Shown piece after piece: positions 36,209 to 62,592 of a DNA stretch of 64,000 bases (position 1 is its first letter; the number at the start of each line of letters is the position of its first letter). Source of the stretch: Anaerofustis stercorihominis (GTDB lineage Bacteria > Bacillota > Clostridia > Eubacteriales > Anaerofustaceae); contig NZ_SPHL01000004.1 in the NCBI RefSeq assembly GCF_005844425.1, forward strand, positions 1 through 64,000. Reading direction: 5' to 3'. A program made the position numbers and the translations under genes. The notes under the pieces are model-generated. The model saw only the letters and a list, made by a program, of their open reading frames with translations. It searched no databases and had not been told where the DNA came from.

Positions 36209-36562
36209 ATGAAACGACTATTAGTAGTGGACGATAATACGGAATATCTGCAATTCCTGTCATCCGTGTTATCAGGTGATTTTGATACGATTAAGGCTAC
36301 GGGCGTCAAGGACGCATTGGATATTCTTCAAGCGATTACAGTAGATGCGATATGTTCCGATTTCAATATGAAAGACGGCACAGGATTGGATTTGCTTGAA
36401 GATATTCGTCAACGAGGGATCTCCGTTCCTTTCCTACTTATGTCTGGCAATGACGATTACCTGCTTGTACAACAGACAAAACTTTATGGCGGCGTTTTTT
36501 GCTGCAAAACCGATTATGATTTGATTGCGAAAATAAAAGCACTGAATAACCCCGAACCATAA
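36209..36562 (+). CDS. Single-domain response regulator (receiver only)
   Basis: A 117-residue CheY-like protein. Acidic pair VVDDN, phospho-acceptor Asp51 in AICSDFNMKDG, Ser in LLMSGND and Lys100 in VFCCKTDYD complete the receiver site. There is no output domain, and the frame ends in NNPEP before a hairpin. No kinase lies next to it; the only kinase in cargo 1 is at 30876-32276, so this protein may take phosphate from it as a sink or connect to another system. Confidence 0.82.
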   Translation: MKRLLVVDDNTEYLQFLSSVLSGDFDTIKATGVKDALDILQAITVDAICSDFNMKDGTGLDLLEDIRQRGISVPFLLMSGNDDYLLVQQTKLYGGVFCCKTDYDLIAKIKALNNPEP

Positions 36563-36574
36563 TGCTCTATCATC

Positions 36575-36740
36575 TGCCGGACGACGGCAAAAGAAAAAAA
36601 GCCGTCGTTCAGCAGGCAATCATCATGCCATCATTATATATCACGGCGGCTTTGAATAAATCAGGGCCGCCGCTCTTTTGTCCCTCAAAGGAATGACGAC
36701 CACAAGCTAAAGATCACGGCGGCTTTAGGAGGGAGCCGCC
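36575..36740 (+). promoter_or_regulatory. Structured leader, copy 1
   Basis: Three consecutive hairpins. First, GACGACGGC (36580-36588) pairs with GCCGTCGTT (36601-36609) around an A-rich loop. Second, GGCGGC (36645-36650) pairs with GCCGCC (36666-36671), with the tail GCTCTTTT. Third, CGGCGGCT (36717-36724) pairs with AGCCGCCG (36734-36741), with the ribosome binding site AGGAGG in its loop, directly before the GTG at 36741. The same order of hairpins is found at 49685-49865. Confidence 0.65.
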
Positions 36741-36985
36741 GTGAAGCGAGAACAGCTTCGACATAATTCGGCAGGAATTTACCTGTCAAAAAAAGCCTGT
36801 CCCCGGCAGCGGGGACATATACCCAAGAAGATGAACTATACTATGTAGGTAAGCAGCAAAACACACCAGATAGCGTCTGGCTGGCGTATGACCAGTCAGG
36901 CGTTTTTTGTCGCATCCTGCGGTTTTCCGTGGGGTGTCGTTCTCCACCGTCCCCATTTCAATTCACCCGTCAACCCCTGAATTGA
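36741..36985 (+). pseudogene. Short leader ORF, copy 1, frame broken at an A7 run
   Basis: GTG 36741 opens a frame that matches the intact 79-codon ORF at 49865 for 15 codons and then leaves it at the run of seven A (36788-36794), ending at TAG 36848 after 35 codons. The conserved frame continues one base back (-1) through NTPDSVWLAYDQSGVF... and ends at TGA 36983-36985, 14 nt before the sigma-like gene. The A run is a canonical slippery heptamer in the zero frame (codons AAA AAA). A hairpin GTCCCC/GGGGAC (36799-36816) starts 4 nt later. It is either a simple 1-nt deletion or programmed -1 frameshifting. Confidence 0.55.
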
Positions 36986-36990
36986 AATGG
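36953..36990 (+). promoter_or_regulatory. Inverted repeat next to the ribosome binding site, copy 1
   Basis: Perfect 13-bp arms CCATTTCAATTCA (36953-36965) and TGAATTGAAATGG (36978-36990) with a 12-nt loop. The right arm runs into the ribosome binding site GGAGGA and ends 9 nt before the ATG at 37000. The identical element occurs at 50077-50114. It could be a protein operator or an RNA hairpin that controls translation. Confidence 0.75.
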
Positions 36991-36999
36991 AGGACAAGT

Positions 37000-37482
37000 A
37001 TGTTCAATAAGAAAAGTGAATACGCGCAGAATAAGCGCGAGAAAGATAGCATCATCTACATAAGTGTGAATGGACGCATCCGGCTCACCCGCGCAGACTT
37101 TTCCAGTGAGGAAGAATTTCTTCGCTGGAAACAATGGTCCGATGAGGACTACTATGAGACGGAACGCCGGGGGCGTGGATACTACGATAACGGGGTTCCT
37201 CTGGATGAAAACATAAGCGCGGCAGGTGCGGTGGAGTCTGCGGAGGATGCTTATTTCCGTGAGCTTCTGGCTGATGAAATCGAAGCGGCTCGGAAAGCTC
37301 TGTGTCAGGAGCGCATGGCTAAGGTGAAAGCCCTTCTGACCGCCAGGCAGTACCGCCGGATCTGGATGTGTTTGGCCGAAGAAAAATCCATCACAGAGAT
37401 CTCCAGGATTGAAGGACGGTCTAAAGCCAGTGTGTCCCGTTCTATTGCTGCGGCGCTCCATAAGCTCCGCAAACTGCGTTAA
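37000..37482 (+). CDS. Sigma-70 region 4-like regulator, copy 1
   Basis: A 160-residue protein starting MFNKKSEYAQNKREKDSIIYI (ATG 37000 behind GGAGGACAAGT). The N-terminal half is acidic (RLTRADFSSEEEFLRWKQW). The last 55 residues carry an HTH of sigma region 4 type (ARQYRRIWMCLAEEKSITEISRIEGRSKASVSRSIAAALHKL). It is a paralogue of the protein at 50124. Comparable small sigma-like proteins (Orf7-like) occur in Tn916/Tn1549 elements and act in control of transfer genes; whether this one guides RNA polymerase is not known. Confidence 0.78.
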   Translation: MFNKKSEYAQNKREKDSIIYISVNGRIRLTRADFSSEEEFLRWKQWSDEDYYETERRGRGYYDNGVPLDENISAAGAVESAEDAYFRELLADEIEAARKALCQERMAKVKALLTARQYRRIWMCLAEEKSITEISRIEGRSKASVSRSIAAALHKLRKLR

Positions 37483-37484: not shown

Positions 37485-37531
37485 CAGAATAAGAAACTAT
37501 CAACAGGGGTGGCCTGCAGATGCAGGCCGCC
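37485..37531. repeat. Palindrome-bearing repeat at right edge of cargo 1
   Basis: Second copy of the repeat at 30825-30866: cagaat...atcaaca and the palindrome GGCCTGC-AGAT-GCAGGCC, here with GGTGGCC in place of GGCGGCC at the outer left arm and a 5-nt insertion in the spacer. It lies 25 nt upstream of the relaxase gene, a position where a relaxase or MobC binding site would be plausible. Confidence 0.68.
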
Positions 37532-37555
37532 CTCATCATGGAAGGAGGCTTTTTC

Positions 37556-38980
37556 ATGGCAACCACGCGGCTCATGCCCCTGCACACCGGCAAAGGCCGG
37601 ACGGTGGGGACGGCCATCAGCGACATCATCGACTATGTTCAAAATCCGCAGAAAACAGATAACGGCAGGCTCATTACCAGCTATCAATGTGACAGCCGGA
37701 TTGCAGATGCGGAGTTCCTTTTCAATAAGCGGCAGTACATCGCCGCCACCGGCCGGGTACGGGGTGAGGACGATGTGATTGCCTATCATATCCGACAATC
37801 CTTTGTCCCTGGTGAGATCACGCCGGAAGAAGCAAACCGGCTGGGCTGTGAGCTGGCGCGGCGCTTCACCAAGGGGAAACACGCCTTTATTGTCTGCACT
37901 CACATTGATAGAAAACACATCCATAATCACATCATTTTCGATGCCACCGCGCTGGACTACCAGCGAAAGTTTCGGAACTTTTGGGGCAGCACCCGCGCGG
38001 TCCGGCGGCTTAATGATACCATCTGTATAGAGAACGGATATTCCATTGTAGAGAACCCGAAGCCGCATGGAAAGAGCTATAACAAGTGGCTGGGTGATCG
38101 GGCCAAACAATCTCAGCGGGAGACGCTGCGTGTGATGATCGACCAGGCCCTGGAGCATAAACCCGCCGACTTCGATGCCCTGCTGAAGCTGCTGGAAGGG
38201 ATGGGCTGCGAGGTGTCCCGCCGTGGGCAGTCGTACAGCATCAAAGCACCTGGATGGGACAATGCCGCCCGCATGAGTAAGAAGCTGGGCAAAGGGTACA
38301 GTGAAGCCGAGCTTCGTGCGGTTCTGGCCGGAGAAAAGGAACATACCCCCACCAGGACCACGCCCCACCCGGAGCCGAAACAGGCTGTGAGCCTGATGGT
38401 CGATATTCAGGAAAAGCTTCGCGCTGGCAAGGGGGCCGGTTATCAGCGATGGGCCACCGGCTTCAATCTGAAGCAGATGGCGCAGACCATGAATTATCTC
38501 TCCGAGCATAAACTGCTTGATTATAAAGTGCTGTCGGAAAAGACAGCGGCAGCCACCGCCCTGTACAATGAATTGTCCGCGCAGATCAAGGCAGCGGAAA
38601 AGCGAATGACGGAGATTGCGGTCCTCCGCACCCACATCATCAACTACGCCAAAACGCGGGAGGTCTATGTCGCATATCGCAAGGCCGGATATTCAAAGAA
38701 GTTCCGCGCCGAGCATGAGGCAGACATCCTTTTACACCAGACCGCAAAGAAAGCATTTGATGAGCTGGGAATGAAAAAGCTCCCCACCGTCAAGAGCTTG
38801 CAGGCGGAATATGCGGAGCTGATGGCACAAAAAAAGGCAGCCTATTCCGGCTACCGAAAGGCCCGTGATGAGATGAAGGAGCTTCTGACCGTCAAGGCCA
38901 ATGTAGACCGCATCATGGGCTATGAGGAAGAAAAGCAGACAGAAAAAGAACACGCCCAGGAGCAGAGCCAGGGACGATGA
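37556..38980 (+). CDS. MOBP-type relaxase
   Basis: A 474-residue relaxase of the MobA/VirD2-like (PF03432) family, ATG 37556 behind GGAAGGAGGC. The likely catalytic Tyr lies in the N-terminal part (YVQNPQKT or YQC region). The metal-binding three-His motif is CTHIDRKHIHNHIIFDA (about residues 115-130). The C-terminal half is helical, Lys/Glu-rich and probably coiled-coil. The protein should nick at oriT and pilot the single strand through the channel. It is separated from mobC by 7.7 kb of cargo. No damage is visible. Confidence 0.9.
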   Translation: MATTRLMPLHTGKGRTVGTAISDIIDYVQNPQKTDNGRLITSYQCDSRIADAEFLFNKRQYIAATGRVRGEDDVIAYHIRQSFVPGEITPEEANRLGCELARRFTKGKHAFIVCTHIDRKHIHNHIIFDATALDYQRKFRNFWGSTRAVRRLNDTICIENGYSIVENPKPHGKSYNKWLGDRAKQSQRETLRVMIDQALEHKPADFDALLKLLEGMGCEVSRRGQSYSIKAPGWDNAARMSKKLGKGYSEAELRAVLAGEKEHTPTRTTPHPEPKQAVSLMVDIQEKLRAGKGAGYQRWATGFNLKQMAQTMNYLSEHKLLDYKVLSEKTAAATALYNELSAQIKAAEKRMTEIAVLRTHIINYAKTREVYVAYRKAGYSKKFRAEHEADILLHQTAKKAFDELGMKKLPTVKSLQAEYAELMAQKKAAYSGYRKARDEMKELLTVKANVDRIMGYEEEKQTEKEHAQEQSQGR

Positions 38981-49684: not shown

Positions 49685-49864
49685 CCTGCCCCGCTAAACG
49701 GGGAAAGAAAAAAACCGTTGCGGGGCAGGTGGTTTCGTGCGCGCAATTCGCATTTTCACCCAAGCGGCGGTTTTGAAATACATTTCAAGGCCGCCGTTCT
49801 TCATGCCCTTATGAGAATGACGACCCTATGCTGAATGTTACGGCGGCTTTAGGAGGGAGCCGCC
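49685..49864 (+). promoter_or_regulatory. Structured leader, copy 2
   Basis: Same layout as copy 1. CCTGCCCCG (49685-49693) can pair with CGGGGCAGG (49721-49729), or its CCCCG half with the nearer CGGGG (49699-49703), giving mutually exclusive hairpins around an A-rich segment. A second long hairpin at about 49764-49795 (CGGCGGTTTTGAAAT with ATTTCAAGGCCGCCG) ends in TTCTT. The third, CGGCGGCT/AGCCGCCG (49841-49865), carries AGGAGG in its loop and touches the GTG start at 49865. Confidence 0.65.
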
Positions 49865-50104
49865 GTGAAGCACAGAGAGCTTCGACATAATCCGGCAGGA
49901 ATTTACCTGCCTCAAAAATGCCTGTCCCTGGCAGCGGGGACTTATACCCAAGAAGATGAACTATACGATGTAAGTCAATATCAAAATACACCAGATAGCG
50001 TCTGGCTGGATTATATCCAGTCAGGCGTTTTTTGTCATATCCTGCGGTTCTCCGTTGGGTGCCGTTCTCCACCGCCCCATTTCAATTCACCCGTCAACCC
50101 CTGA
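49865..50104 (+). CDS. Short leader ORF, copy 2 (intact)
   Basis: 79 codons from GTG 49865: MKHRELRHNPAGIYLPQ..., later QYQNTPDSVWLDYIQSG and the Pro-rich end RSPPPHFNSPVNP. The ribosome binding site AGGAGG lies in the loop of a GC hairpin 6-11 nt upstream. The stop TGA (50102-50104) is the first codon of the right arm of the inverted repeat, 19 nt before the next ATG, so its translation would open that repeat. Conservation of the encoded sequence in both copies argues for a real peptide. No known domain. Confidence 0.6.
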   Translation: MKHRELRHNPAGIYLPQKCLSLAAGTYTQEDELYDVSQYQNTPDSVWLDYIQSGVFCHILRFSVGCRSPPPHFNSPVNP

Positions 50105-50114
50105 ATTGAAATGG
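50077..50114 (+). promoter_or_regulatory. Inverted repeat next to the ribosome binding site, copy 2
   Basis: Identical to 36953-36990: arms CCATTTCAATTCA (50077-50089) and TGAATTGAAATGG (50102-50114), 12-nt loop, adjoining GGAGGACAAGT and the ATG at 50124. Confidence 0.75.
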
Positions 50115-50123
50115 AGGACAAGT

Positions 50124-50627
50124 ATGTTTGATAAGAAAAGCGAATACGCCCTGAACAAATACGATCAGGACAGCATTATATACATAAGTGTAAGCGGCCG
50201 CATCCGGCTCACTCGCGCGGACTTTTCCAGTGAGGAAGAATTTCTGAAATGGAAAACCTGGTCTGATGCAGACTACCACGAGACTGAAAAGAAAGGTCGG
50301 AGCTTCAACGATAATCGGGTGGCTCTGGATGATTACCTGGATGTGGTCGGAGCGGTTCAGTCTGCCGAGGATGAATTTTTCTCTGAGCTTCTGAAGGCGG
50401 ATGTCCAGGCAGAGGAAAAGGCTTTGCGTGAGAAACGGCTGGCTGCATTGAAAGCCATTCTGAACGCAAAGCAGTACCGCCGGATCTGGCTGTACTATGC
50501 TGAAAGGAAGTCTGTCACCGAGATTGCCAGGCTTGAAGGAGTGACGAAGGCCAGCGTCTCCCTCTCACTTGCCAGGGCAATCAAAAAAATTTCAAAAAAG
50601 TTCGCGGCGGGCCTCAAAAATAGCTAA
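50124..50627 (+). CDS. Sigma-70 region 4-like regulator, copy 2
   Basis: A 167-residue paralogue of the protein at 37000, starting MFDKKSEYALNKYDQDSIIYI. The acidic N-terminal half has RLTRADFSSEEEFLKWKTW almost identical to copy 1. The HTH reads AKQYRRIWLYYAERKSVTEIARLEGVTKASVSLSLARAIKKI. The N-terminal 45 residues are more similar than the rest, so the copies have diverged in the HTH and may recognise different sites. It lies before the excision-integration genes, as small sigma-like regulators do in Tn916-type elements. Confidence 0.78.
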   Translation: MFDKKSEYALNKYDQDSIIYISVSGRIRLTRADFSSEEEFLKWKTWSDADYHETEKKGRSFNDNRVALDDYLDVVGAVQSAEDEFFSELLKADVQAEEKALREKRLAALKAILNAKQYRRIWLYYAERKSVTEIARLEGVTKASVSLSLARAIKKISKKFAAGLKNS

Positions 50628-51111: not shown

Positions 51112-51417
51112 ATGACTTCAAATTCGCCTGTTTGTTATGCGAATATTCCGTCCGGGAGTTCCGGGCGTACTCATACAGAAAGATACTCCGCTGTTCAGCC
51201 TGCGGGCTTTGGTAAGATCGGCATGACGATTGAAGAAGCTGCCGACTATACCGGCATTGGACGCAACACTCTCCGCCGCCTTGTGGATTGGGGGAAAATC
51301 CCGGTCTTGCGGATTGGGCGTAAGTCCATAGTCCGTGTGGATGTGATTTGCTGTTTCATGCAGATCAACGAGGGCCGTGACCTTCTGGACCGCAATCAGG
51401 TCCTTGCGGTGGATTGA
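51112..51417 (+). CDS. xis: Excisionase (Xis), Tn916/Tn1549 type
   Basis: A 101-residue protein with a MerR/excisionase-type winged HTH: GMTIEEAADYTGIGRNTLRRLVDWGKIPVLRIGRKSIVRV (about residues 37-77). The 35-residue N-terminal extension is Ser/Pro-rich. GAAGGAGGCG stands before ATG 51112. Placed directly before the integrase, it should bend the ends of the element for excision. It lies behind the terminator at 51026-51088, so its expression may need read-through. Confidence 0.88.
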   Translation: MTSNSPVCYANIPSGSSGRTHTERYSAVQPAGFGKIGMTIEEAADYTGIGRNTLRRLVDWGKIPVLRIGRKSIVRVDVICCFMQINEGRDLLDRNQVLAVD

Positions 51418-51451: not shown

Positions 51452-51480
51452 TTGATAGGAAAGCCACCCTTTGCTATAAT
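51452..51480 (+). promoter_or_regulatory. Promoter of the integrase gene
   Basis: TTGATA (51452-51457), 17-bp spacer, TATAAT (51475-51480). It lies behind xis and 52 nt before the int start, giving int expression independent of xis. Confidence 0.75.
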
Positions 51481-51532
51481 CAGGGTGACACATCACTACG
51501 GTTCCGTTTGCCAGCATAGAAAGGAGTTTGCT

Positions 51533-52837
51533 ATGGCAAAAGGATCTGTAAGAAAGAAAGGAAAGAAGTGGTACTATCGCTTTTATGTAGAGGATGCCAG
51601 CGGCAACCGTGTCCAGAAGGAATTTCCGGGAACGGAAAGCAAGAGTGAAACCGAGTCTCTGCTCCGCAAGGCGATGGAGGACTATGAAACCAAAATGTTT
51701 CTGGCACAGGCCAAGAACATCACTTTGGGAGATATGCTGGATATGTGGGTGGAGGAAGAACTGAAACCCGGCTCGTTGAGTGATGGGACGGTGACAGCCT
51801 ACATCAACACTGTTTCCCGCATCAAGAAGCACCCCATTGGTAAGCGCAAGCTCAAGACGGTAACTTCCGACCATCTGCAAAGCTACATGGATTTGTTGAG
51901 CTTCGGAGGGACAAGCCCCGATGGAAAAACCGTTGAGGCGTTGAGCAAAGGCTCGCTGGGCCAGTATTCGGCAGTGCTTCAAAATTCCTTCCGCTTTGCG
52001 GTTTTCCCCAAAAGGCTGATTACCTTCAATCCGATGCAGTATGTGGTGAAGCGGGTCAAAGACGATGAATATGAGCTGTTCACCGAAGATGGCACAGGCG
52101 ACCTTCCCGTTGAAACGCCGACAATTTCCCATGAGCAGTATTTGGCGCTGAATGAGCTTTTGAAGAAAAAGCACAATCCCGCGTTACTGCCTATCCAGAT
52201 TGCCTATTACGCCGGGCTTCGTATCGGCGAGGTGTGCGGGCTGACTTGGCAGGACATCGACCTGAAGGAACAGTGCCTTACCATCCGCCGGAGTATGCGG
52301 TATGACTCCGTAAGGAAGAAAACGCAGATCGGCCCCACCAAGCGCAAAAAAATCCGTACAGTGGATTTCTGCGACACCCTGGCGGCCATCCTGCGGGAAG
52401 CCAAAAAGGAGCAAATGCTGAACAGCATCAAATACGGGCCGTTGTACTCCCAAAACTACTATCGCATCATCAAGGAAAAGAACCGCACCTACTACGAGGT
52501 CTATTCCTTGCCCCGGACAGAGACACCGCCGGAAGATTACACCCAGGTTTCCTTTGTTTGCCTGCGGCCCGATGGAGCTTATGAAGCCCCTGCAACGGTC
52601 AGCAGCGTATGCCGATACTCCCGAAAGAAGATCGGGGATATGGATGATTTTCACTTCCATCTGTTGAGGCATACATATACGACCAACCTTCTCTCCCACG
52701 GGGCGGCACCCAAGGATGTGCAGGAGCTGCTGGGACATTCTGATGTAAGTACCACGATGAACATTTACGCCCACGCCACCAGAGAGGCCAAGCGAACTTC
52801 CGCAAGGCTGCTGGATAAGGTTGTAGGGACGGCCTGA
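51533..52837 (+). CDS. int: Tyrosine integrase, Tn916/Tn1549 type
   Basis: A 434-residue tyrosine recombinase, ATG 51533 behind GAAAGGAGT. Residues 1-60 form the AP2-like arm-binding domain (GSVRKKGKKWYYRFYVEDASGN). The core-binding domain covers about 70-175. The catalytic part carries Arg in YYAGLRIGEVCGLTW (about 226), His and Arg in FHLLRHTYTTNL (about 376-380), a second His in LLGHSDVSTTM and the nucleophile Tyr in NIYAHATREA (about 411). All residues are present, so the element should be able to integrate and, with Xis, excise. Confidence 0.93.
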   Translation: MAKGSVRKKGKKWYYRFYVEDASGNRVQKEFPGTESKSETESLLRKAMEDYETKMFLAQAKNITLGDMLDMWVEEELKPGSLSDGTVTAYINTVSRIKKHPIGKRKLKTVTSDHLQSYMDLLSFGGTSPDGKTVEALSKGSLGQYSAVLQNSFRFAVFPKRLITFNPMQYVVKRVKDDEYELFTEDGTGDLPVETPTISHEQYLALNELLKKKHNPALLPIQIAYYAGLRIGEVCGLTWQDIDLKEQCLTIRRSMRYDSVRKKTQIGPTKRKKIRTVDFCDTLAAILREAKKEQMLNSIKYGPLYSQNYYRIIKEKNRTYYEVYSLPRTETPPEDYTQVSFVCLRPDGAYEAPATVSSVCRYSRKKIGDMDDFHFHLLRHTYTTNLLSHGAAPKDVQELLGHSDVSTTMNIYAHATREAKRTSARLLDKVVGTA

Positions 52838-52965: not shown

Positions 52966-53366
52966 TCTTTACTTACTTTGTCAAGAATATCTCTTGTAGG
53001 ATGTTTTCTTTCTTTTAAGAAGTTATGATCATATCCAAACCCTATTAAGAATTCTCCTTCTTTTATTTTATTATTCTCTTTATATTCATTTAAAAAATTA
53101 ATAATATCATCAAAATTTTTTGCATTTGATAAGTTTGCTATAAGAAGAGATTTTGCTAGTGCTGTAATATGACTGTGGGCATCTATGAAAGAAGGCATTA
53201 GACAATTATCTTCATAGTCTTTTATTTGTGTATTTTCATCCTTTAATTTTAAAATATCTTCTTTTGTTCCTACTTTTTTTATTATTCCGTTTTCTGTTAG
53301 AATTGCGTTACAATGTATATTATCTTCCATTTTAATAATATTGTTTGATAAAAATATTGTTTTCAT
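52955..53366 (-). pseudogene. YtcJ-type amidohydrolase, N-terminal part
   Basis: The first 137 codons of the amidohydrolase cut by the ICE. MKTIFLSNNIIKMEDN begins behind GAGAGAAAGGA. The metal motif is MPSFIDAHSHIT (HxH), followed by EGEFLIGFGYDHNFLKE. The host sequence ends at DKVSKEILI in the junction repeat. Beyond the junction the frame stays open in antisense of int down to about 52599, so a fusion product with an unrelated C-terminal tail could be made. The rest of the enzyme is at 175-1345. Confidence 0.9.
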
Positions 53367-53420
53367 TTTTTTATATCCTTTCTCTCTGTAATTTTATTAT
53401 ATCTTATTTTTTATAATTTT

Positions 53421-53452
53421 ATAAAAAAAAGAGAGAACATTTTGTTCTCTCT
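53421..53452 (-). terminator. Terminator of the lysozyme gene
   Basis: Arms AGAGAGAAC (53430-53438) and GTTCTCTCT (53444-53452) with a T-rich run on the minus strand (53422-53430). It overlaps the last bases of the lysozyme gene. Confidence 0.85.
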
Positions 53453-55340
53453 AAAATTTAAGGTATTTACTATGTACATATCCATAATAAGTTTTTTTCC
53501 CTTTTTTAAAGGTAATTTTATACCATCTTTTGCCTTTGCTGTCATTTTTATATCCGTAGGCTGTAACTTTCTTATTATATGTTATTGTTGTTATTCTTTT
53601 TGAACTTGTTCCTGCATTGCTTCTTACATTTAAAACTAAAGCTTTTACTTTTGCTGTTTTTTTAGTCATTGACAAGTATGTTTTTAGCACGGCTTTTGCT
53701 TTTAACGAAGAAGAATATGAACCATAATAGTTTTTACCGCTTAAAGTTCTATAAGCTCTTACTTTATAATAATAAGTTTTATTTTTTGAAACTTTTTTAT
53801 CTTGATATGTATTTCCTTTTACTGTTGCAAGGTATACATAGGTTTTTGATTTAGAATTATATTTATATATTCTGTATCCGCTTGCTCCATATACTTTTGA
53901 CCATGTAAGATTTATTTTATTTGTATATGTTGTAGTTACTTTTAAACCACTAACTTTTTTAGGATCTGTTGTTGCATAGGTTGCAGAAGATGCACTGCTG
54001 TATATTCTAGAACCTGATTTGTCTGTATAAAAACTTCTTATTTTATAAATATATGTTGTAGCACTACTTCTTTTTGAGTCAGTATAATTTGTGGTACTTC
54101 CCGATGTTATGTCTTTTAATACATCATATTTTTTTGTTTTAGAATTATATCTATAAATCCTATAACCTGTTGCATTGCTTATTTTATTCCAAGTTAATTT
54201 TATTGCATTATCACTACTTGAATAAAAAGTTAGTTTTGGAGTAGATATTGATGGTTCAGATGATTTTGGAGTATACCAAACATTTATATCTACTCTCCCT
54301 GAAATACCATCAACACTTCCACTGCTTGTATGTTGCCAAAATTCATATTTACCGCTATATGATGTAGAGCTTGTATAATGAGCAAGCCATACTTTATATG
54401 TGGAATCTATTGTTGATTTGTTTAAATCATAATTAAGCATGCTGTAATTTGCATATACCATAGGAGTGTATCCTGCATTTTTTACTGTTTTGCAAAATTC
54501 CATAACAATATTTGTTGCTGCAGTTTTAGATAAATTTGCATTGGTTAATCTACCATCGCTTCCGCCGGCATATTCATAGTCGATTACAACAGGCATATCT
54601 AAACCATAACCTTTTATTTGCTTTAATGTGTAATTAGCCTCTTGTCTTGCTTCCGCAGTTGTTATTGCTTGGGAGAAGAAGTATACTCCTACCTTTATAC
54701 CATATTTTTTAGCTTCTGTGATGTTTCTTTTAAAAGTTGAATCGTTGTCGATTGTTCCCATTTTCCCATATCCTCTGTATCCAACTCTGATAAATGCGTA
54801 TTTAATACCATCGTTTTTTACTTTTTGCCAGTTAATTGTTCCATTCCAATAAGAAACATCAATACCATACGTTACATTATAATCTTTAAATTTACTGTTA
54901 TGAGTATATGTTTTATTATCATATGGACTTTTTAAATTAAATCCGCTATTTGTACTTCTTGCCATTGGACCTGTTGAATAAAATTCATCAGAAATATCTC
55001 CGTTTGCTCTAAATTGTTGAGGGTCATCATTAGTAATATCTTTTTCTTCTGTTAAGTTATTTTGAGAAGATACAGAGTCATTTTGATTTTGTGTTTTTTG
55101 GCTATTTTCTGTTTCTTGATTAGATTGTTTTTCAGTTTCTTTATTTGTATCTGAACCTTCTTTTTTTTCATCTTCTTTTGTTGTTGTTTGAACTTCTTGA
55201 TTTATTGTATTGTTTTCGTCTTCATTTATTTCTTCTTGATTTGTTGATGTATTTTGATTTTGTGTTTGAGCCGAAATAGGTACAATAAAAATATTCATTG
55301 CAAAAATAATTGCTAAAATAAAAGTTAAAAATTTTTTCAT
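53451..55340 (-). CDS. GH25 lysozyme with two FnIII-like repeats and SH3 domain
   Basis: A 629-residue secreted muramidase. Signal peptide (1-24), then a long Gln/Asn/Glu/Thr-rich spacer (25-110), then the GH25 domain (about 155-350) with YGIDVSYWNG (catalytic Asp161), MPVVIDYEY (Asp/Glu pair) and VWLAHYT. Two fibronectin III-like repeats follow (about 365-455 and 460-550; paired motifs ITLTWNKISNATGYRIYRYNSKTKKY and INLTWSKVYGASGYRIYKYNSKSKTY). A bacterial SH3 domain closes it (about 560-629; LNVRSNAGTSSKRITTI, YYGYVHSKYLKF). It should cleave peptidoglycan at the cell surface. Composition is host-like. Confidence 0.9.
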   Translation of the reverse strand: MKKFLTFILAIIFAMNIFIVPISAQTQNQNTSTNQEEINEDENNTINQEVQTTTKEDEKKEGSDTNKETEKQSNQETENSQKTQNQNDSVSSQNNLTEEKDITNDDPQQFRANGDISDEFYSTGPMARSTNSGFNLKSPYDNKTYTHNSKFKDYNVTYGIDVSYWNGTINWQKVKNDGIKYAFIRVGYRGYGKMGTIDNDSTFKRNITEAKKYGIKVGVYFFSQAITTAEARQEANYTLKQIKGYGLDMPVVIDYEYAGGSDGRLTNANLSKTAATNIVMEFCKTVKNAGYTPMVYANYSMLNYDLNKSTIDSTYKVWLAHYTSSTSYSGKYEFWQHTSSGSVDGISGRVDINVWYTPKSSEPSISTPKLTFYSSSDNAIKLTWNKISNATGYRIYRYNSKTKKYDVLKDITSGSTTNYTDSKRSSATTYIYKIRSFYTDKSGSRIYSSASSATYATTDPKKVSGLKVTTTYTNKINLTWSKVYGASGYRIYKYNSKSKTYVYLATVKGNTYQDKKVSKNKTYYYKVRAYRTLSGKNYYGSYSSSLKAKAVLKTYLSMTKKTAKVKALVLNVRSNAGTSSKRITTITYNKKVTAYGYKNDSKGKRWYKITFKKGKKTYYGYVHSKYLKF

Positions 55341-55406
55341 TATTTCCCTTTCCTTTAGACATTTTTATTTAGTATATCATAAAAAATATAAAAGTCTATA
55401 TTTTTT

Positions 55407-56276
55407 TTATAAACCCCTTAAATATTCCTCTTTTAAAGCTATTTCTCCATTTATTGCATCATCTAAGGTTTTTAATAGATTTTCTTTATCTTTATTTAAA
55501 GTACCTTTTAAGTTTAAATAGTTTGAGGCATGATTTGAACGAAATACTGCATTTGAACAGTTTAGATTTTCAATTAATAATCTCGTTTCTTTTAAAATAT
55601 CCTTAGGTTCCAATAAATTAAATTCGCCATTTTCAATTTGTTGTTTTAATACTGTACCCTCTTCAACCATAAGAGTTAATAGCCCTATATATTCAGGATC
55701 CATTTCAGATAAAACTTCTGCAGTTTTAATGGCATGTTCTTCCCATAATTCACATCCTCCAAGACCAGATATAACAGTCACAGATATTTTTAGTCCTGCA
55801 TCTTTAGCTTGTTTTGCTGCTTTTATCATTTCTTTTGCAGATGTTCTTTTTTTAACTTTCTTTAGTATTGTGTCACTTCCTGATTCAAGTCCTATATATA
55901 AAAGTTTTAATCCTTTTTCTTTTAATACTCTTAAATCTCTTGGCTTTTTAAATAAAATACTTTTTGCTGTTGCATAACATGATACTTGCTTGCATTCCGG
56001 AAAAGTTTCTTTTATATAATCTAGAACTTCGTTTAAAGTTTCCATGTCGCTAAATAGTGCGTCGCCGTCAGCTAAAAATATTTTTTCTACATTATCATAT
56101 GTCCTTCTTGCTTCGCTTAAATCTGCAAGTATATAATTTAAATTTCTTATTCTGAATTTTTTATCTTTATACATACTGCAAAAAGTACAGCTGTTTTGTG
56201 AACATCCTATTGTTACTTGAACAATAAGGCTATATGCTTCGCTTGGTGGTCTGTATACAATTCCTTCGTATCTCAT
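55407..56276 (-). CDS. Radical SAM protein
   Basis: A 289-residue radical SAM enzyme. The 4Fe-4S motif is TIGCSQNSCTFCSMY, with cysteines spaced C-x4-C-x2-C, one residue longer than the canonical CxxxCxxC when counted from the first Cys. Later parts are FLADGDALF, LYIGLESGSDTILKKV and TVISGLGGCELW, typical of the Elp3/HemN-like uncharacterised group. The reaction is unknown. It lies between the lysozyme and DJ-1 genes on the same strand. Confidence 0.85.
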   Translation of the reverse strand: MRYEGIVYRPPSEAYSLIVQVTIGCSQNSCTFCSMYKDKKFRIRNLNYILADLSEARRTYDNVEKIFLADGDALFSDMETLNEVLDYIKETFPECKQVSCYATAKSILFKKPRDLRVLKEKGLKLLYIGLESGSDTILKKVKKRTSAKEMIKAAKQAKDAGLKISVTVISGLGGCELWEEHAIKTAEVLSEMDPEYIGLLTLMVEEGTVLKQQIENGEFNLLEPKDILKETRLLIENLNCSNAVFRSNHASNYLNLKGTLNKDKENLLKTLDDAINGEIALKEEYLRGL

Positions 56277-56298
56277 ATTATCTCCTTCTTTTTAAAAT

Positions 56299-56323
56299 AA
56301 GAAGCTTCTTTAAGAAGCTTCTT
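56299..56323 (-). terminator. Terminator of the DJ-1/PfpI gene
   Basis: Arms AAGAAGCTTC (56299-56308) and GAAGCTTCTT (56314-56323) followed on the minus strand by ATTTT. It overlaps the stop codon of the gene. Confidence 0.75.
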
Positions 56324-56855
56324 AATAGTATATTTCTTCTTTTATTTCCTTTTCTTTTTCTTCGCCTTCTAACGCTTTTAGAATTTCAAATCCAAAATCA
56401 ATACTTGCTGCTGCAGATCTTCCTGTTATAAAGTTTTTATCTTTTACAACATACTTATCAACATATGTTCCACCAAAATCTTCATTCATTGATGTAAAAC
56501 ATGTGTAATTTTTGTCTTTTAAGTATCCAGCTCTGCCTAAAATAGTAGGACCAGCACAAATTGCACATATTAATTTATCTTTATCATTAAATTCTTTTAT
56601 TAATGCTTGTACTTCTTTACTTGCTTCTATTGTAACATATTCCGGTCCGCCAGGTAATATTAAAGCACTGTAATCATCACCGTTTAGTTTTGAGAAAGGT
56701 TTTAAATTTGTGCATGTAAGACCGAATCTTCCTGTTGCATCTTTATCAAGTAGTGAATAAATATCAACTTCAACTCCGCCTCTTCTTAAAATTGCATATG
56801 TTCCGATTGCTTCAACTTCTTCAAATCCGTCTGTTATTACCATACATACTTTCAT
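56322..56855 (-). CDS. DJ-1/PfpI family protein
   Basis: A 177-residue protein of the DJ-1/ThiJ/PfpI fold. The N-terminal MVITDGFEEVEAIGTYAILRRGG contains the conserved Glu; LILPGGPEY and ICAICAGPTILGRAG hold the nucleophile-elbow Cys. It probably acts in stress protection (deglycase or chaperone-like activity has been proposed for the family). The length is normal, followed by an unusual Glu/Lys tail (EGEEKEKEIKEEIYY). Confidence 0.87.
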   Translation of the reverse strand: MKVCMVITDGFEEVEAIGTYAILRRGGVEVDIYSLLDKDATGRFGLTCTNLKPFSKLNGDDYSALILPGGPEYVTIEASKEVQALIKEFNDKDKLICAICAGPTILGRAGYLKDKNYTCFTSMNEDFGGTYVDKYVVKDKNFITGRSAAASIDFGFEILKALEGEEKEKEIKEEIYY

Positions 56856-57057
56856 ATTTATATATCTCCTTTATCATTATTATCATATTAATAATTATAT
56901 TATATCACTTATTCTTGATAATAGGGGATAGATTTTATGTATATGATATTTATTTAATATGTGTAAACGAATAAAATATATTTGTTGATTTATATATAGA
57001 TAGTGTGTATTATATTATATATAGAATATCGAGTGTGTAAAATGGAGAGGTAAACTT

Positions 57058-59790
57058 ATGAACAGAAAGGAGTTAGTATATGATATTTTAAGAAAATATC
57101 AATATGAACGAGAAAATGTAAAAAGTGTAGAAGATATTGGTCTTGATGCCAGTGAAATATCTGAGCTAATTAATGCTGATAGAAGTAATACAAGTAGGTA
57201 TCTTAACGAACTTGTGAAAGAAGAAAAAATTATAAAATTAGATGGAAGACCTGTAAAGTTTGTTGAAAAAGAAATATACAATAATTTTATAAACGAAAAA
57301 AATAATGATATAGACGATATGGATCCTTTTAAAAATCTAATTGGTTTTAACTCATCTTTAAAATCTCATATTGAGCAGGCAAAGTCAGCAGTATTATATC
57401 CGCCAAGAGGGCTTCATACTTTAATTACAGGTCCCACAGGTACAGGAAAAAGTACTTTTGCGGAAAAAATATATGAATATGCAATGGAAATGAAGACAAT
57501 AGATAGCGATGCAAAATTTGTTGTTTTTAACTGCGCTGAATATGCAGAAAATCCTCAACTTGTAATGTCTCAGCTTTTTGGTCATATTAAAGGAGCTTTT
57601 ACGGGAGCAGATAAAGAAAAAAGCGGACTTATTGATGAAGCGAACGGCGGAGTTCTTTTTTTAGATGAAATTCATAGACTTTCTCCCGAGTGTCAAGAAT
57701 TACTGTTTATGTTAATGGATAAGCATGTATTTAGAAGACTTGGAGAAACAGGAGGACAAAGAAAAGCAGATGTTCTTATTATTGGTGCAACCACCGAAGA
57801 TATAAATGCTTCTTTGCTTCAAACTTTTTTAAGAAGAATGCCTGTTACAATTAATCTCCCTTCGTTAAAAGAAAGGCATTTATCTGAAAGATTGCAGCTT
57901 ATAGAAAGCATATTGTCAAGTGAGCAGACAAATATGGATGTTTCCATAAGAGTTCATAAAGATGCTTTGATTGCTCTTTTATTATATGAGTGTAAGGGTA
58001 ATGTCGGACAGCTTAAAGCTGATATTCAACTTTTGTGTGCAAGAGGCTTTTTGGATTATAAAGTGCACAATAAAAAATACGTGGAAATTTGTACATCTAT
58101 ACTTCCTGAACATATACAAGAAGGTCTTTTATATTCAAAGAATAAAAATGATTTGATTGACTTTATCAAAAATTCGGAAGAATATCATTATTTTAATAAT
58201 AAAGAATTTGCAGTAGAACAAAATAGTGATTCTAATCTTGTTGCTCATATCAATGATAAATATAACGATTTTATCAAAATGGGAAGAAGCAGCATGGAGA
58301 TAAGCAATATAATAAATTCTGATTTGGACGAATATTTCAATCAAATTTTTGAAAAATACAAAATAGATGAAAGAGATATTCACAAAGAAAGTTTATTAAA
58401 AATTGTTGATATTAAAGTATTGGAAACTTGTGAAGATGCAATTCAATTTGCGGAAATGAAGCTTGGAAGAAAGCTTTCTGACAGAATAAAAATAGGAATG
58501 ATAATGCATATTAATTCCATGGTTGCAAGAGTTTCAAACGGAACATACATAAAAAATGATAAGATAAATGAAATTGTACTAAATAATCCAAAGGAACTAA
58601 AGATTGCCAAATTTATTTTTGCTTTACTGGAAGAGGATTTGAGTATAAAAATTCCAAAACATGAAATTGGATTTTTAACTATGTTTTTATGTGCGCCGGA
58701 AGAAATAGAAAACAAAAGTAATATAGGCGTTATTGTAATGGCTCACGGAAACTCTACAGCAAGCAGTATGGCTGATTTTGTAAATAATTTATTAAATACG
58801 CACCATTGCAGAGCTTTGGATATGCCTATGGATATGAGTACAAGCACTGCATTAAATAACCTTTGCGATATGATAAATGATACCGATGAGGGCAGAGGGG
58901 TACTTCTTCTTGTAGATATGGGTTCTCTTAATATGATGGGAGAAATGGCCATGAAAAAAACAGGAAAGAATATTTGTACTGTAGAAATGGTGTCTATCTT
59001 ACTTGTTATAGAGGCTGTCAGAAAGGCAAGCCTAAGAGATACGGATCTAATTTCCTTAAAAAATGATTTAGAAAATATTTATCAAAATTTACACAGTAAA
59101 ATAAGTGTTTTACCTGCACCTTATGAAAAACAAAAAACAATTATAACAACCTGTATTTCCGGAAAAGGTGTTGCAGTAAAAATTGATAATATAATAAAAG
59201 AATCCATTGATGTAAACAAATATAATGTAGTAATAAAACATTTGGATATATTAAGTGCAGACAATATTGACAAGGTTTTAGAAGAAAAAGGAATAAGCGA
59301 TGTTATAGCTGTTGTTGGAACAGTGGATTTAAAAATTAATAATATTCCATTTATTCCAATAAATGAACTTATAGTAGGAAACGGAATAAGTATTTTGCAT
59401 CAGTTGTTAAATGGACAAAAGTATATTCAAAATCAAGAAGATACAATTATTAATAAAACAGTTGTTAAAGAAACTTTAAAAAATATACTTACATTTTTAA
59501 ATTATGAAAAAGCAAGTGTACTTTTGATTGACGCTTTTAATGATATCTTTTCTAAATTGGCACTTTCTGTGGGGAAAGATGTATTTTTAAGATTTATTAT
59601 GCATACAGGATGTATGCTTGAAAGAGTCATAAAAAATGAATCTATTCCCCATCTTAATGCAGGAGAATTTATAGAAGAACATAAAGAAGAGTATAAAATA
59701 ATAAAAGAAGCTTTCTTTAAATGCGAAGAAGATTTTAATATTTTTATACCAAAGGATGAAATTTCTTATATAATAGAGCTTTTACATTGA
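57058..59790 (+). CDS. LevR-type sigma-54 activator with PTS regulatory domains
   Basis: A 910-residue activator. Order: N-terminal winged helix (about 1-70); AAA+ domain with Walker A GPTGTGKSTFAEK (about 124), the sigma-54 contact loop GAFTGADKEKSGL (about 180) and VLFLDEIHRLSP; first PRD (about 440-540, His in IGMIMHINSMVARV); EIIA-Man-like domain (about 555-680, HGN in VIVMAHGNSTASS); an EIIB-like part; and a second PRD at the end (His in FIMHTGCMLERV, about 848). Phosphorylation of these His residues by the PTS links activity to sugar supply. It should activate the sigma-54 promoter at 59918 in front of the PTS operon. A 200-bp AT-rich gap precedes it, with only a weak TATA-rich promoter area. 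Confidence 0.92.
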   Translation: MNRKELVYDILRKYQYERENVKSVEDIGLDASEISELINADRSNTSRYLNELVKEEKIIKLDGRPVKFVEKEIYNNFINEKNNDIDDMDPFKNLIGFNSSLKSHIEQAKSAVLYPPRGLHTLITGPTGTGKSTFAEKIYEYAMEMKTIDSDAKFVVFNCAEYAENPQLVMSQLFGHIKGAFTGADKEKSGLIDEANGGVLFLDEIHRLSPECQELLFMLMDKHVFRRLGETGGQRKADVLIIGATTEDINASLLQTFLRRMPVTINLPSLKERHLSERLQLIESILSSEQTNMDVSIRVHKDALIALLLYECKGNVGQLKADIQLLCARGFLDYKVHNKKYVEICTSILPEHIQEGLLYSKNKNDLIDFIKNSEEYHYFNNKEFAVEQNSDSNLVAHINDKYNDFIKMGRSSMEISNIINSDLDEYFNQIFEKYKIDERDIHKESLLKIVDIKVLETCEDAIQFAEMKLGRKLSDRIKIGMIMHINSMVARVSNGTYIKNDKINEIVLNNPKELKIAKFIFALLEEDLSIKIPKHEIGFLTMFLCAPEEIENKSNIGVIVMAHGNSTASSMADFVNNLLNTHHCRALDMPMDMSTSTALNNLCDMINDTDEGRGVLLLVDMGSLNMMGEMAMKKTGKNICTVEMVSILLVIEAVRKASLRDTDLISLKNDLENIYQNLHSKISVLPAPYEKQKTIITTCISGKGVAVKIDNIIKESIDVNKYNVVIKHLDILSADNIDKVLEEKGISDVIAVVGTVDLKINNIPFIPINELIVGNGISILHQLLNGQKYIQNQEDTIINKTVVKETLKNILTFLNYEKASVLLIDAFNDIFSKLALSVGKDVFLRFIMHTGCMLERVIKNESIPHLNAGEFIEEHKEEYKIIKEAFFKCEEDFNIFIPKDEISYIIELLH

Positions 59791-59807
59791 TACACAGTAA
59801 AATTATT

Positions 59808-59832
59808 TTACAGTAAAACTTACACACTGTAA
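59808..59832 (+). promoter_or_regulatory. Candidate upstream activator site for LevR
   Basis: Inverted repeat TTACAGT (59808-59814) and ACTGTAA (59826-59832) with an 11-bp spacer; a further half site ACAGTAAAA lies just upstream near 59793. The distance of about 90 bp to the -24/-12 promoter suits an enhancer-type site. Confidence 0.6.
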
Positions 59833-59917
59833 TTAAAAAAAATTTTTTAAAAATTTTTTTAAGTCAAATACCTGTTATTTGGCTTATTTTTTTATAAATT
59901 CTAATTACACACAAAAG

Positions 59918-59934
59918 TTGGCACGCTTTTTGCA
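59918..59934 (+). promoter_or_regulatory. Sigma-54 (-24/-12) promoter of the PTS operon
   Basis: TTGGCAC (59918-59924), 5 nt, TTGCA (59930-59934): matches the consensus TGGCAC-N5-TTGCA exactly. It lies 46 nt before the PTS IIA start and behind a LevR-type activator. Confidence 0.9.
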
Positions 59935-59979
59935 TTATATATGGCAAATGATAAAAGAAAAATGAAAGGGGGTAAATTC

Positions 59980-60381
59980 ATGATTGGGATATTAGTAGTA
60001 ACACATGGAAATGCCGGAATAGAATTAGTAAAAAGCAGCGAGTTAATTATCGGGCATCAAGAAAAAATAGATGCGTTATCTTTAAATCATGGGGATGATA
60101 TTAATGAACTTGAACAAAAGGTAGCAAAGAAATCAGCCGAGCTTGATGATGGAAGCGGAGTTCTTGTATTGGTTGATTTACTTGGCGGAAGTCCGTGCAA
60201 CGTAACAGGTAAGAATATAAAAGGTTCTGACAATATCGAATGCTTGACCGGTGTAAACTTACCTATGTTAATAGAAGCGATTGCTTCAAGAGAAAATAAT
60301 TCCTTAAAAGATTTGGTAAATATTGCAAAAGATTCATCTCTTCAAGGAATTAAAGATTTAAGAAATCTTATGTTTAATTAA
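59980..60381 (+). CDS. PTS EIIA, mannose family
   Basis: A 133-residue EIIA-Man protein. ATG 59980 has GAAAGGGGG in front; an earlier ATG at 59941 lies at the transcription start area and is not used. The phospho-His lies in VVTHGNAGIELVKS (His9 region); further marks are ALSLNHGDD and VLVDLLGGSPCNV. It passes phosphate from HPr to IIB and can also report sugar supply to LevR. Confidence 0.9.
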   Translation: MIGILVVTHGNAGIELVKSSELIIGHQEKIDALSLNHGDDINELEQKVAKKSAELDDGSGVLVLVDLLGGSPCNVTGKNIKGSDNIECLTGVNLPMLIEAIASRENNSLKDLVNIAKDSSLQGIKDLRNLMFN

Positions 60382-60427
60382 TTTTTTATATTGTCATTAT
60401 TCGTAAAAATAAAAGGAGGAGGTAAAA

Positions 60428-60925
60428 ATGGCAAAAATCAATCTTGTTAGAATCGACAGCAGACTTATTCACGGGCAGGTAATAACAAAATGGTTAAAAA
60501 TGTCAGGTGCGGACAGAATAATCATCGTTGATGACGAACTTGCAAAAGATGACTTTATGTCTATTATCTATACAACTGCAGCTCCAAAAGACGTTAGCGT
60601 AGAAATACTTAGTGTAGAAGATGCTAAAAAGGGCTGGATGGAAAATGAACTTGGAAACGGAAGTTTATTAATTTTATTTAAAGATATTAAAACATGTTAT
60701 GAACTTAAAAATGAGGGAGTGAATATTGAAAATATCCAAATTGGAGGACTTCCAAGTGCTCCGGGCAGAACTGTTATTTTAAGAGCAGTATCATTTGATG
60801 AAGATGATGTTTCAAAATTAAAAGAACTTCATGATGCAGGAGTTGAAATAAATATACATATTATTCCTGAAGAACCAAAAATGAACTATGAAAATATGAT
60901 TAAAAAATTCGAAGAAAAAAAATAA
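60428..60925 (+). CDS. PTS EIIB, mannose/sorbose family
   Basis: A 165-residue EIIB protein. The active His is in VRIDSRLIHGQVITKW (about residue 15), then RIIIVDDELAKDDF and the end MNYENMIKKFEE. AAAGGAGGAGG precedes the ATG. It transfers phosphate to the incoming sugar at the membrane complex. Confidence 0.9.
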   Translation: MAKINLVRIDSRLIHGQVITKWLKMSGADRIIIVDDELAKDDFMSIIYTTAAPKDVSVEILSVEDAKKGWMENELGNGSLLILFKDIKTCYELKNEGVNIENIQIGGLPSAPGRTVILRAVSFDEDDVSKLKELHDAGVEINIHIIPEEPKMNYENMIKKFEEKK

Positions 60926-60948
60926 GAAATAATTAAGGAGAAAAAATT

Positions 60949-61698
60949 ATGTTATTAACATTAGCGATTGTAGCCGGTCTTTGGTACTGGATTAGTCAAA
61001 GTAAATTAGGTTATACATTCCACTGGGCGATTTGTCAGCCGATCGTTATGGCACTGCCTTTTGGTCTTATATATGGAGATGTTGCAAAAGCAATGATTAT
61101 AGGGGCATCTCTAGAAATGGTATATCTTGGTATGGTTGCTGCCGGAGCAAATATTCCAGCAGATGAAAGTTTAGCAGGAGTTATTGCTATTCCAATAGCT
61201 TTAGTTTCAGATATTCCTGCTGCAACAGCAGTTACACTTGCAATTCCTTTTGGTTTACTTGGTGTATTACAAGATCAAATCAGAAGAACAATTCAAGCAA
61301 GTTTTGCTCATAAAGCAGATAAATATGCAGAAGAATGCAATATTAAAGGAATAGAAAGATGTGCGATATTATTCCCTTTAATTTTAGGATTTTTCTTAAG
61401 ATTCCCACCTGTATTTTTAGCTAATTATTTTGGAGCGGGTGTTGTTGAAAATATTTTAGCGGCTATACCGGTTTGGTTAACTCATGGTTTAGAAGTTACA
61501 GGCGGCGTATTACCTGCACTTGGTTTTGCTATTACAGTATTTATTATTGGAAAGAAAACATATTTACCATTCTTTATTTTAGGATTCTTTATGGTTCAAT
61601 ACTTACAAATTAGTGTAATGGCAGCTGCAATATTCGGAACATGTATGGCATTACTTATCATATTCTTAAGAAGAGAAAATCAAAATACTACAACCTAA
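60949..61698 (+). CDS. PTS EIIC, mannose family
   Basis: A 249-residue membrane protein with the EIIC-Man start LLTLAIVAGLWYWISQSKLGYTF and the conserved GASLEMVYLGMVAAGANIPADES. About seven membrane helices. It forms the transport channel with IID. Confidence 0.88.
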   Translation: MLLTLAIVAGLWYWISQSKLGYTFHWAICQPIVMALPFGLIYGDVAKAMIIGASLEMVYLGMVAAGANIPADESLAGVIAIPIALVSDIPAATAVTLAIPFGLLGVLQDQIRRTIQASFAHKADKYAEECNIKGIERCAILFPLILGFFLRFPPVFLANYFGAGVVENILAAIPVWLTHGLEVTGGVLPALGFAITVFIIGKKTYLPFFILGFFMVQYLQISVMAAAIFGTCMALLIIFLRRENQNTTT

Positions 61699-61710
61699 AA
61701 GGAGATTAAA

Positions 61711-62592
61711 ATGAAACAAGAAAATATGGAAAAAAATTTAGTTAACGAAGAAGTTAATGAAGTTGTTGAAAATAAAGAAGAACAAGCAGAAAAAATAACA
61801 CAAAAAGATATTAATAAAGCATTTTTTAGATGGTGGGTTGACGTTGAAGTTGCAAGCTCATATGAAAGAATGCAAGGTATTCCATTTTGTTATTCAATGA
61901 TACCAATTCTTAAAAAGTTATATAAGAAAAAAGAAGATTTAAGTTATGCTTTGAAAAATCACTTAAACTTCTTTAATACTCAAGGTACATGGGGAACACC
62001 TATTCACGGTATGGCTATTGCCATGGAAGAAGAACTTCATGACGGTGATAGAGAAATGAGAGAAAATGCAATTACAGGTATTAAAACCGGCTTAATGGGA
62101 CCTCTTGCAGGTATTGGAGATACCATTGACTGGGGCACATTAAAAACAATTATTGCAGGTATTGCGGTTACTTTCGGTATAACAGGTAGTATTCTTGGTG
62201 CGATTATTCCATTTGTATTCACAATCATTACATTCTTAATTGGTAAATATTTATGGAATATGGGATACAAACTTGGAAAAGAATCAGTTAAGAATATTCT
62301 TCAATCTGGTTGGATTAATGAACTTATTTCAGGTACAGCTATTTTAGGGTTATTCATGATGGGTGCTTTAGCATCAAGTTACGTTAAATTGACTATTCCA
62401 ATAGCCTTTACAGTTGGCGGCACGGAAATGACAATTCAAGGTATCTTGGATAGTATTGCTCCTGGATTATTACCTCTTGGTGTTGTATTTGGTATTTATT
62501 ACATTCTTAAAAATAAAACACAAAAATATGGACTTATTTCAATCGGTATAGTTGCAATATCAATTTTAGGTGCAATGATAGGATTATTTTAA
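61711..62592 (+). CDS. PTS EIID, mannose family
   Basis: A 293-residue protein with a Glu/Asn-rich extension of about 30 residues at the N-terminus. Then follows the family core: FFRWWVDVEVASSYERMQG, NTQGTWGTPIHGMAIAMEE, ITGIKTGLMGPLAGIGDTIDWGT. The C-terminal half has membrane helices. It is the partner of IIC; the start codon follows 12 nt behind the IIC stop. Confidence 0.9.
   Translation: MKQENMEKNLVNEEVNEVVENKEEQAEKITQKDINKAFFRWWVDVEVASSYERMQGIPFCYSMIPILKKLYKKKEDLSYALKNHLNFFNTQGTWGTPIHGMAIAMEEELHDGDREMRENAITGIKTGLMGPLAGIGDTIDWGTLKTIIAGIAVTFGITGSILGAIIPFVFTIITFLIGKYLWNMGYKLGKESVKNILQSGWINELISGTAILGLFMMGALASSYVKLTIPIAFTVGGTEMTIQGILDSIAPGLLPLGVVFGIYYILKNKTQKYGLISIGIVAISILGAMIGLF

Follow-up and report, generated by a model that had tools for sequence, protein, structure and literature searches.

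A leader with a conserved candidate −1 frameshift site before sigma-like regulator genes of Tn916/Tn1549-type elements

Results

We analysed positions 1 to 64,000 of contig NZ_SPHL01000004.1 of Anaerofustis stercorihominis (assembly GCF_005844425.1; the window), which carries a mobile element with two copies of a regulatory cassette. An initial annotation, made from the sequence alone, had placed these cassettes at 36575–37482 (copy 1) and 49685–50627 (copy 2), and their coordinates and common part order are confirmed: three hairpins (H1, H2 and H3), a short open reading frame (ORF), an intrinsic terminator, a 13-bp inverted repeat and a sigma-like gene, all on the plus strand. We find that the cassette is probably a leader that gates the sigma-like regulator by reading frame. 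The central part of the switch, new relative to the initial annotation, would be a −1 frameshift site with two gates, the terminator and a hairpin at the ribosome site of the sigma gene, both lying in the −1 frame.

A conserved slippery heptamer at the head of a long open −1 frame

In copy 1, the leader ORF (36741–36848, frame 0, VKREQLRHNSAGIYLSKKACPRQRGHIPKKMNYTM) contains an in-frame slippery heptamer of the X XXY YYZ type, A AAA AAA, at 36788–36794 (TCA AAA AAA GCC). Frame 0 stops 23 nucleotides (nt) 5′ of the terminator stem. The −1 frame continues for 65 codons (36788–36985), crosses the terminator and stops at 36983–36985, in the right arm of the inverted repeat and 14 nt before the sigma start.

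We evaluated this arrangement in relatives found by a search with the H1 pattern, which gave five viral contigs and at least 119 genome-contig stretches, mostly from gut Clostridia. Together with the window and two plasmids, these matches form a set of at least 128 sites. With H3, whose loop carries the Shine-Dalgarno sequence and which closes at the start codon, as the only criterion, a leader ORF was found at 94 of the 128 sites. Seventy-seven of these 94 leaders, found without requiring an A-run, carry seven A residues (A7) in the phase NNA AAA AAA and five more carry A6 in the same phase, compared with 142 of 10,091 control ATG windows with A7 (1.4%). Elsewhere, none of the 67 Lys-Lys pairs of 24 window genes and 13 of the 233 in the neighbour genes of all loci have the form NNA AAA AAA.

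Requiring the A-run kept 97 of the 128 sites, among them 78 A7 leaders. At least 50 codons are open in the −1 frame in 68 of the 78, in frame 0 in three and in the +1 frame in four; five of the ten A7 leaders with a short −1 frame run off the contig. After clustering at 80% identity, 44 of 49 clusters have at least 40 open codons in the −1 frame, four in frame 0 and four in the +1 frame, and the shuffle control at the same length (200 dinucleotide shuffles, 49 clusters) averaged 10.5 and never exceeded 18.

The gates and synonymous codon changes were analysed in 75 of the 78 A7 leaders, those with a −1 reading of at least 17 codons starting with KK. In leaders where frame 0 stops immediately, codons with a single change are synonymous most often in the −1 frame (253/607, 0.42), followed by frame 0 (121/651, 0.19) and the +1 frame (88/614, 0.14). 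Behind the terminator, the corresponding counts are 65/167, 37/170 and 46/181. Amino acids are only weakly conserved, which suggests that what counts is less the peptide than the ribosome passing through.

One slip would open two gates

In 63 of the 75 leaders a terminator hairpin could be identified, mostly about 75–80 nt after the slip site, so that, as in attenuation, an intrinsic terminator lies between the leader start and the regulated gene (in copy 1 at 36872–36908, stem 36872–36904). The frame-0 stop comes mostly 6 nt or about 54–57 nt past the slip, short of the terminator. Among the 63 leaders, frame 0 stops before the terminator in 58, the −1 frame stops after it in 62, and the +1 frame does so in two.

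A second hairpin, 3′ of the terminator, enters the ribosome site of the sigma gene. Its stem reaches 7 bp or more in 38 of 42 distinct regions, compared with 9.5% of shuffles, and is kept across relatives while its sequence changes. In the window, this hairpin is the inverted repeat of the initial annotation, perfect and, as had been stated, identical in both copies (36953–36990 and 50077–50114), and it runs into the sigma Shine-Dalgarno sequence, GGAGG in copy 1. A role of the 38-bp inverted repeat as an operator for a protein was also considered and rejected, as the repeat had no match in viral contigs and relatives keep the hairpin over the sigma start and not the sequence.

The sigma start could be assigned in 50 leaders, and the −1 reading reaches its surroundings in 48 of them, the other two stopping far upstream. 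Thirteen −1 readings are fused in frame with the sigma gene, 18 enter it out of frame, and 17 end −8 to +40 nt from its start, with eight overlapping it by 1–4 nt. Because the −1 frame both crosses the terminator and reaches the sigma-site hairpin, one slip would open both gates.

We therefore propose the following mechanism, built on the anatomy, conservation, frame geometry and codon choice observed directly in these sequences. The cargo transcript would run into the leader, as the position of H1 a few bases past the last cargo stop implies. A ribosome would start at the Shine-Dalgarno site embedded in H3 and reach A AAA AAA. If it keeps its frame, it would meet a stop codon after a further 6 to about 57 nt, before reaching the terminator, which could then form, and any transcript escaping termination would hold the sigma ribosome site inside the second hairpin. 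If it slips to −1, it would read across the terminator as far as the sigma-site hairpin or into it, arriving next to or straight inside the sigma gene. Slowed ribosomes or a shortage of Lys-tRNA would be expected to make slips more frequent, and the leader would thus report ribosome stress to the transfer genes. The slip itself, its ribosomal nature, the signal that controls it and the activation of mob, xis or int by the sigma-like protein are inferred.

Weighing the frame-gated leader against alternatives

Several observations weigh against this proposal. Five of the 78 A7 leaders have a true early −1 stop, and nine sites have their long frame in +1 instead of −1. The codon counts are also uneven. 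In the dual-coding overlap, synonymous changes are only slightly commoner in the −1 frame (0.35 vs 0.28), and in the short stretch from the frame-0 stop to the terminator they are rarer there than in frame 0 (0.23 vs 0.46); the sequence pairs in all these counts are not independent. A strong hairpin after the slip site does not appear to be a general feature (z averages −0.58 across 50 clusters, with 32% below −1). Finally, copy 2 and a third, diverged cassette (L163, described below) pass the terminator without a slip, so not every member depends on slipping. The nine +1 sites (L016, L037, L051, L054, L062, L084, L086, L096 and L101) mostly have AAA AAG or have lost a base near A7. Copy 1 has a strong 8-bp hairpin a few nt 3′ of its slip site (36798–36817), a possible stimulator; a general stimulatory hairpin at this place was not supported by the folding of the 50 clusters.

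A polymerase that adds or drops an A within A7, such that some transcripts carry the long frame, the gates act as before and the polymerase is the sensor, would act on the same runs, give the same anatomy and also account for the nine +1 sites. We consider this transcriptional slippage rather unlikely. An A7 run is short for polymerase slippage, and the run is nearly always exactly seven, in a phase fixed to two Lys codons after NNA, with synonymous interruption avoided as in a ribosomal heptamer. Slippage needs no such fixed phase, though the frame architecture would fix the phase too.

Ordinary leader-peptide attenuation, in which stalling at Lys-Lys or drug-slowed ribosomes shift the hairpins and the −1 frame is a relic of a one-frame ORF, is more doubtful still. 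Arms of the hairpins can pair over at least seven perfect bases (H1–H2 in 23 and H2–H3 in 32 of 50 clusters), and one-frame relatives do exist in copy 2 and L163. A relic, however, would gain stops and lose A7, whereas in 62 of 63 leaders no −1 stop occurs until after the terminator and the heptamer is kept, and Lys-Lys alone would not fix AAA over AAG.

The two cassettes differ in their need for a slip

The element is taken to span about 1.4–52.9 kb of the window from the contrast in G+C, which is about 30% in the flanks (1–1400 and 53000–64000) and 45–61% inside. In the window the H1 motif has two matches, compared with none in 100 shuffles, and folding z-scores of ten hairpins range from −4.9 to −7.3.

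Copy 1 follows a cargo of two-component and ABC-transporter genes. Its H1 (36574–36615, z −6.1) has a purine-rich A loop and begins about a dozen nt past the last cargo stop. H2 (36644–36681) consists of a hairpin at 36644–36672 and a CTCTTTT tract, and resembles a terminator. In H3 (36714–36744), AGGAGG is predicted to lie in the loop, and the 3′ end of the hairpin holds the start codon of the leader. The sigma region 4-like protein (37000–37482, 160 aa) is directly followed by a MobA/VirD2-like relaxase gene (37520–38980). Copy 2 follows a cargo of ABC/peptide-transporter and DtxR genes. Folding places its H1 at 49685–49729, H2 at 49763–49798, the Shine-Dalgarno hairpin H3 at 49840–49866 and the intrinsic terminator at 49997–50033 (stem 49997–50029). 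Its sigma region 4-like protein (50124–50627, 167 aa) is followed by an excisionase-like gene (51112–51417) and then a tyrosine integrase gene (51452–52837).

The copies are 86–94% identical from H3 to the sigma start and 60–82% identical over much of the sigma coding region. Their proteins, described as paralogous in the initial annotation, are indeed related (63% identity over 158 residues, E = 2e-73). The Pfam match is weak in both and confined to the C-terminal region 4 (taken alone, copy 1 gives only E = 0.016), and it falls short of the regions 2 and 4 of a bona fide sigma-70 factor.

The leaders differ at the slip site. Copy 2 has one extra base before the slip position and only A5 (49914–49918), not a slippery heptamer, and its leader ORF (49865–50104, 79 aa) reads the long frame directly and passes through the terminator. 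The peptide motif ascribed to both short ORFs thus holds for about the first 17 codons. After that the copy 1 ORF ends (36848), and the conserved peptide goes on in the −1 frame to 36985 in copy 1 and in the single frame to 50104 in copy 2; aligned over 78 residues, the copy 2 product has the same residue as the fused −1 product of copy 1 at 58. The best reading of these sequences is that, within one element, copy 1, before the relaxase, would need the slip and copy 2, before xis and int, would not.

A genome search gave no further close copy of the cassette and one diverged third copy (L163, G000:C84). This copy stands before a sigma gene, an HTH_16 gene and Tn916-type Xis and Int genes, and its leader crosses its terminator in one frame.

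Cassettes often close cargo, but not one for one

Two related elements bear on how cassettes and cargo are connected. In Intestinimonas (G431:C24; sigma 93% and relaxase 97% identical), the relaxase-side cassette is complete. A second cassette (L188, G431:C24:112962–113146) has intact hairpins and leader start and lacks the terminator and sigma gene; this decayed cassette ends a second cargo set and is followed by other cargo genes, an arrangement that looks like cargo stacking. In Christensenella (G432:C41; relaxase 71% identical), no cassette precedes the relaxase, and a single cassette lies behind two regulator-kinase-transporter sets. Cassettes therefore often close cargo, but not one for one.

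The earlier idea that each copy closes one cargo module accordingly describes a frequent placement and not a rule. Its extension, that the cassette shows how cargo is added, finds a parallel in the decayed Intestinimonas cassette and is at odds with Christensenella, which comes close to the case that would speak against it, one copy with both cargos, though the cargo is different. The other suggestion, a double switch for transfer and excision, fits the positions of the copies at the relaxase and at xis/int and the switch anatomy of the leader, but was made without sight of the −1 frameshift site. That the cassettes are mainly recombination joints marking cargo addition, with no shared regulatory role, is very improbable. 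In its favour, upstream cargo is very diverse, the two copies resemble each other most in their leader DNA, and the decayed Intestinimonas cassette agrees with it. Against it, diverged copies beside different sigma proteins retain the structure, the frame geometry and the sigma-site hairpins, and Christensenella has one cassette for two transporter sets.

The leader family, its hosts and its neighbours

The upstream gene could be assigned at 87 of 98 sites, with the automatic pick for copy 1 replaced by hand with 36209–36562, and the types are cargo-like. They include FtsX-type permeases (14 of the 87), DtxR-type repressors (10, by the C-terminal domain) and ABC2_membrane_4 permeases (7), and more rarely ABC-F, Vat and BacA proteins (a few). 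The cargo stop lies at most 60 nt from the H1 motif in 59 of the 87. A promoter scan of both window leaders gave no plus-strand promoter-like site; one chance-level match in copy 2 falls inside the end of the cargo gene. The close cargo stops and the lack of promoter-like sites in these two leaders make it likely that the leader is transcribed by read-through from the cargo operon.

Downstream, 61 of 63 proteins match Sigma70_r4_2 at E ≤ 0.01, the 63 being those scanned from 75 ORFs after 12 that were not sigma-like had been removed by eye. The profile of this family matches solved sigma factors over region 4, its best stretches being centred on about positions 80–158. The same leader precedes quite different sigma-like proteins on enterococcal bcrABD plasmids and on a Pusillibacter plasmid. 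The next gene was counted in 61 of 69 rows, those without a sigma-like protein having been removed by eye; it belongs to HTH_16 in 18 of the 61 and is a relaxase, Xis or integrase gene in single cases. Both window cassettes lie between cargo and mobilisation or xis/int genes, and the Orf8-type HTH_16 neighbour is missing beside them, its place being taken by the relaxase after copy 1 and the Xis-like gene after copy 2.

At E ≤ 1e-4, a covariance model of H1–H2 had matches in 36 of the 393 genomes of the class, many of them weak; 12 of the 393, including the genome of the window itself, have matches of at least 60 bits, and weak R1 matches (about 26–35 bits) were not counted as family members. 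A7 was again present at the independently found L135, L137, L142, L151 and both L164 sites. The two L164 cassettes (G304:C23) point in opposite directions and are separated by about 5 kb.

The leader was rejected as a riboswitch of known type or a member of an Rfam family: Rfam at the gathering score gave 0 matches in the window, and 14 further sources gave no leader match. We also rejected H1 as a strict cargo boundary, as other DNA follows H1 at part of the sites outside the A-run set. At L017, L122, L124 and L127, H1 is directly followed by such DNA, apparently insertions, in place of the leader.

The leader in Tn916-type and vanB elements

The regulation region of Tn916 has the order orf12-tet(M)-orf6-orf9-orf10-orf7-orf8-orf5-xis-int. 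The cassette leader has the matching place, behind cargo and before a sigma-like gene, followed by a helix-turn-helix gene, xis and int, and HTH_16, the family that follows the sigma gene in 18 of 61 cases, is that of the Orf8-like gene of L163. Copies 1 and 2 differ from Tn916 in their diverged sigma proteins and in having no orf8 partner.

A search for orf7-like genes on plasmids gave 50 records, of which 12 were listed as a spread and eight regions were fetched. The A7 leader, correctly phased, is present in six of the eight: L196 and L198, which are tet(M) elements of Tn916 type with identical leaders, L199–L201 (tet(M)) and L202 (vanB). L197 (Clostridioides) and L203 are without it. In L196, called Tn916-type by its annotated gene order, the leader is MKYIIYNKFPYIGFLSKKVVYLQ, and its −1 frame, which we take to be the orf10 named for Tn916 in PMC7288454, crosses the terminator into the orf7-like gene. 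In L202, presumably a Tn1549-like element, the −1 frame is fused with the sigma start. The near-identical tet(M) elements L199 and L201 differ by one T in the terminator tract, and this difference decides whether the −1 frame stops just past the terminator or runs into orf7.

With somewhat less assurance than for the cassette itself, we lean towards a general role in the Tn916/Tn1549 superfamily. The sigma-like transfer activator would be frame-gated through a −1 slip at A AAA AAA, often as an N-terminally extended fusion, and the state of the ribosome (drug, amino-acid supply) would decide whether the element prepares to move.

Comparison with known regulatory systems

Attenuation of the trp, his and pheL type uses a leader ORF, competing hairpins and an intrinsic terminator before the regulated gene, all of which the cassette has. 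It departs from pheL in that here a change of frame would decide whether the ribosome enters the terminator; frameshifting at pheL is regarded as incidental to attenuation (PMC5009743). The same review describes the ermC leader, where telithromycin-induced frameshifting lets the ribosome run on and unfold the RNA over a downstream start, so that, as proposed here, a slip in a leader ORF exposes a hidden start (PMC5009743). The ermC slip, however, is drug-induced, largely independent of the peptide sequence and acts on a translational gate only (PMC5009743), whereas the cassette has a conserved heptamer and, together in its −1 frame, a transcription terminator and a translational hairpin.

The passages covered of the Tn916 literature describe attenuation at the tet(M) leader orf12 and an antisense RNA to orf9 (PMC7288454), attenuation again in PMC9154091, and Porf7 and the element canT downstream of orf8 (PMC11658703). 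Within these passages, PMC7288454 and PMC11658703 make no mention of a frameshift leader before orf7 in Tn916 control, and the terms leader and attenuat- do not occur in the text covered of PMC11658703. By title and abstract, the open literature gave no frameshift leader before orf7, subscription papers being mostly outside this coverage, and the portion of PMC3711429 covered holds no conjugative or sigma frameshift case.

Like the leader, canT is an RNA element of the same mobile elements concerned with terminators, being a processive antiterminator. The leader was rejected as canT on its place, since it lies before orf7 or the sigma gene and canT lies 126–577 bp behind orf8 (PMC11658703). 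Matches to the Rfam pemK RNA (RF02913) were found at L163 (6471–6534), L060, L023, L044 and L164. The L163 match lies between the Orf8-like gene and xis, 253–316 nt behind orf8 and within the canT interval reported in PMC11658703, and pemK RNA may be part of canT.

Implications for element transfer

Resistance spreads through Tn916-like and vanB elements among bacteria of the gut and the clinic, and Tn916 transfer is reported to increase under ribosome-targeting drugs (PMC9154091). If the frame-gated leader is real, a second ribosome sensor before orf7 would explain the link between drugs and transfer where the cargo has no tet(M)-type leader. Frameshifting, instead of stalling, would then set transcription attenuation, and this reading would yield predictions at the level of single bases.
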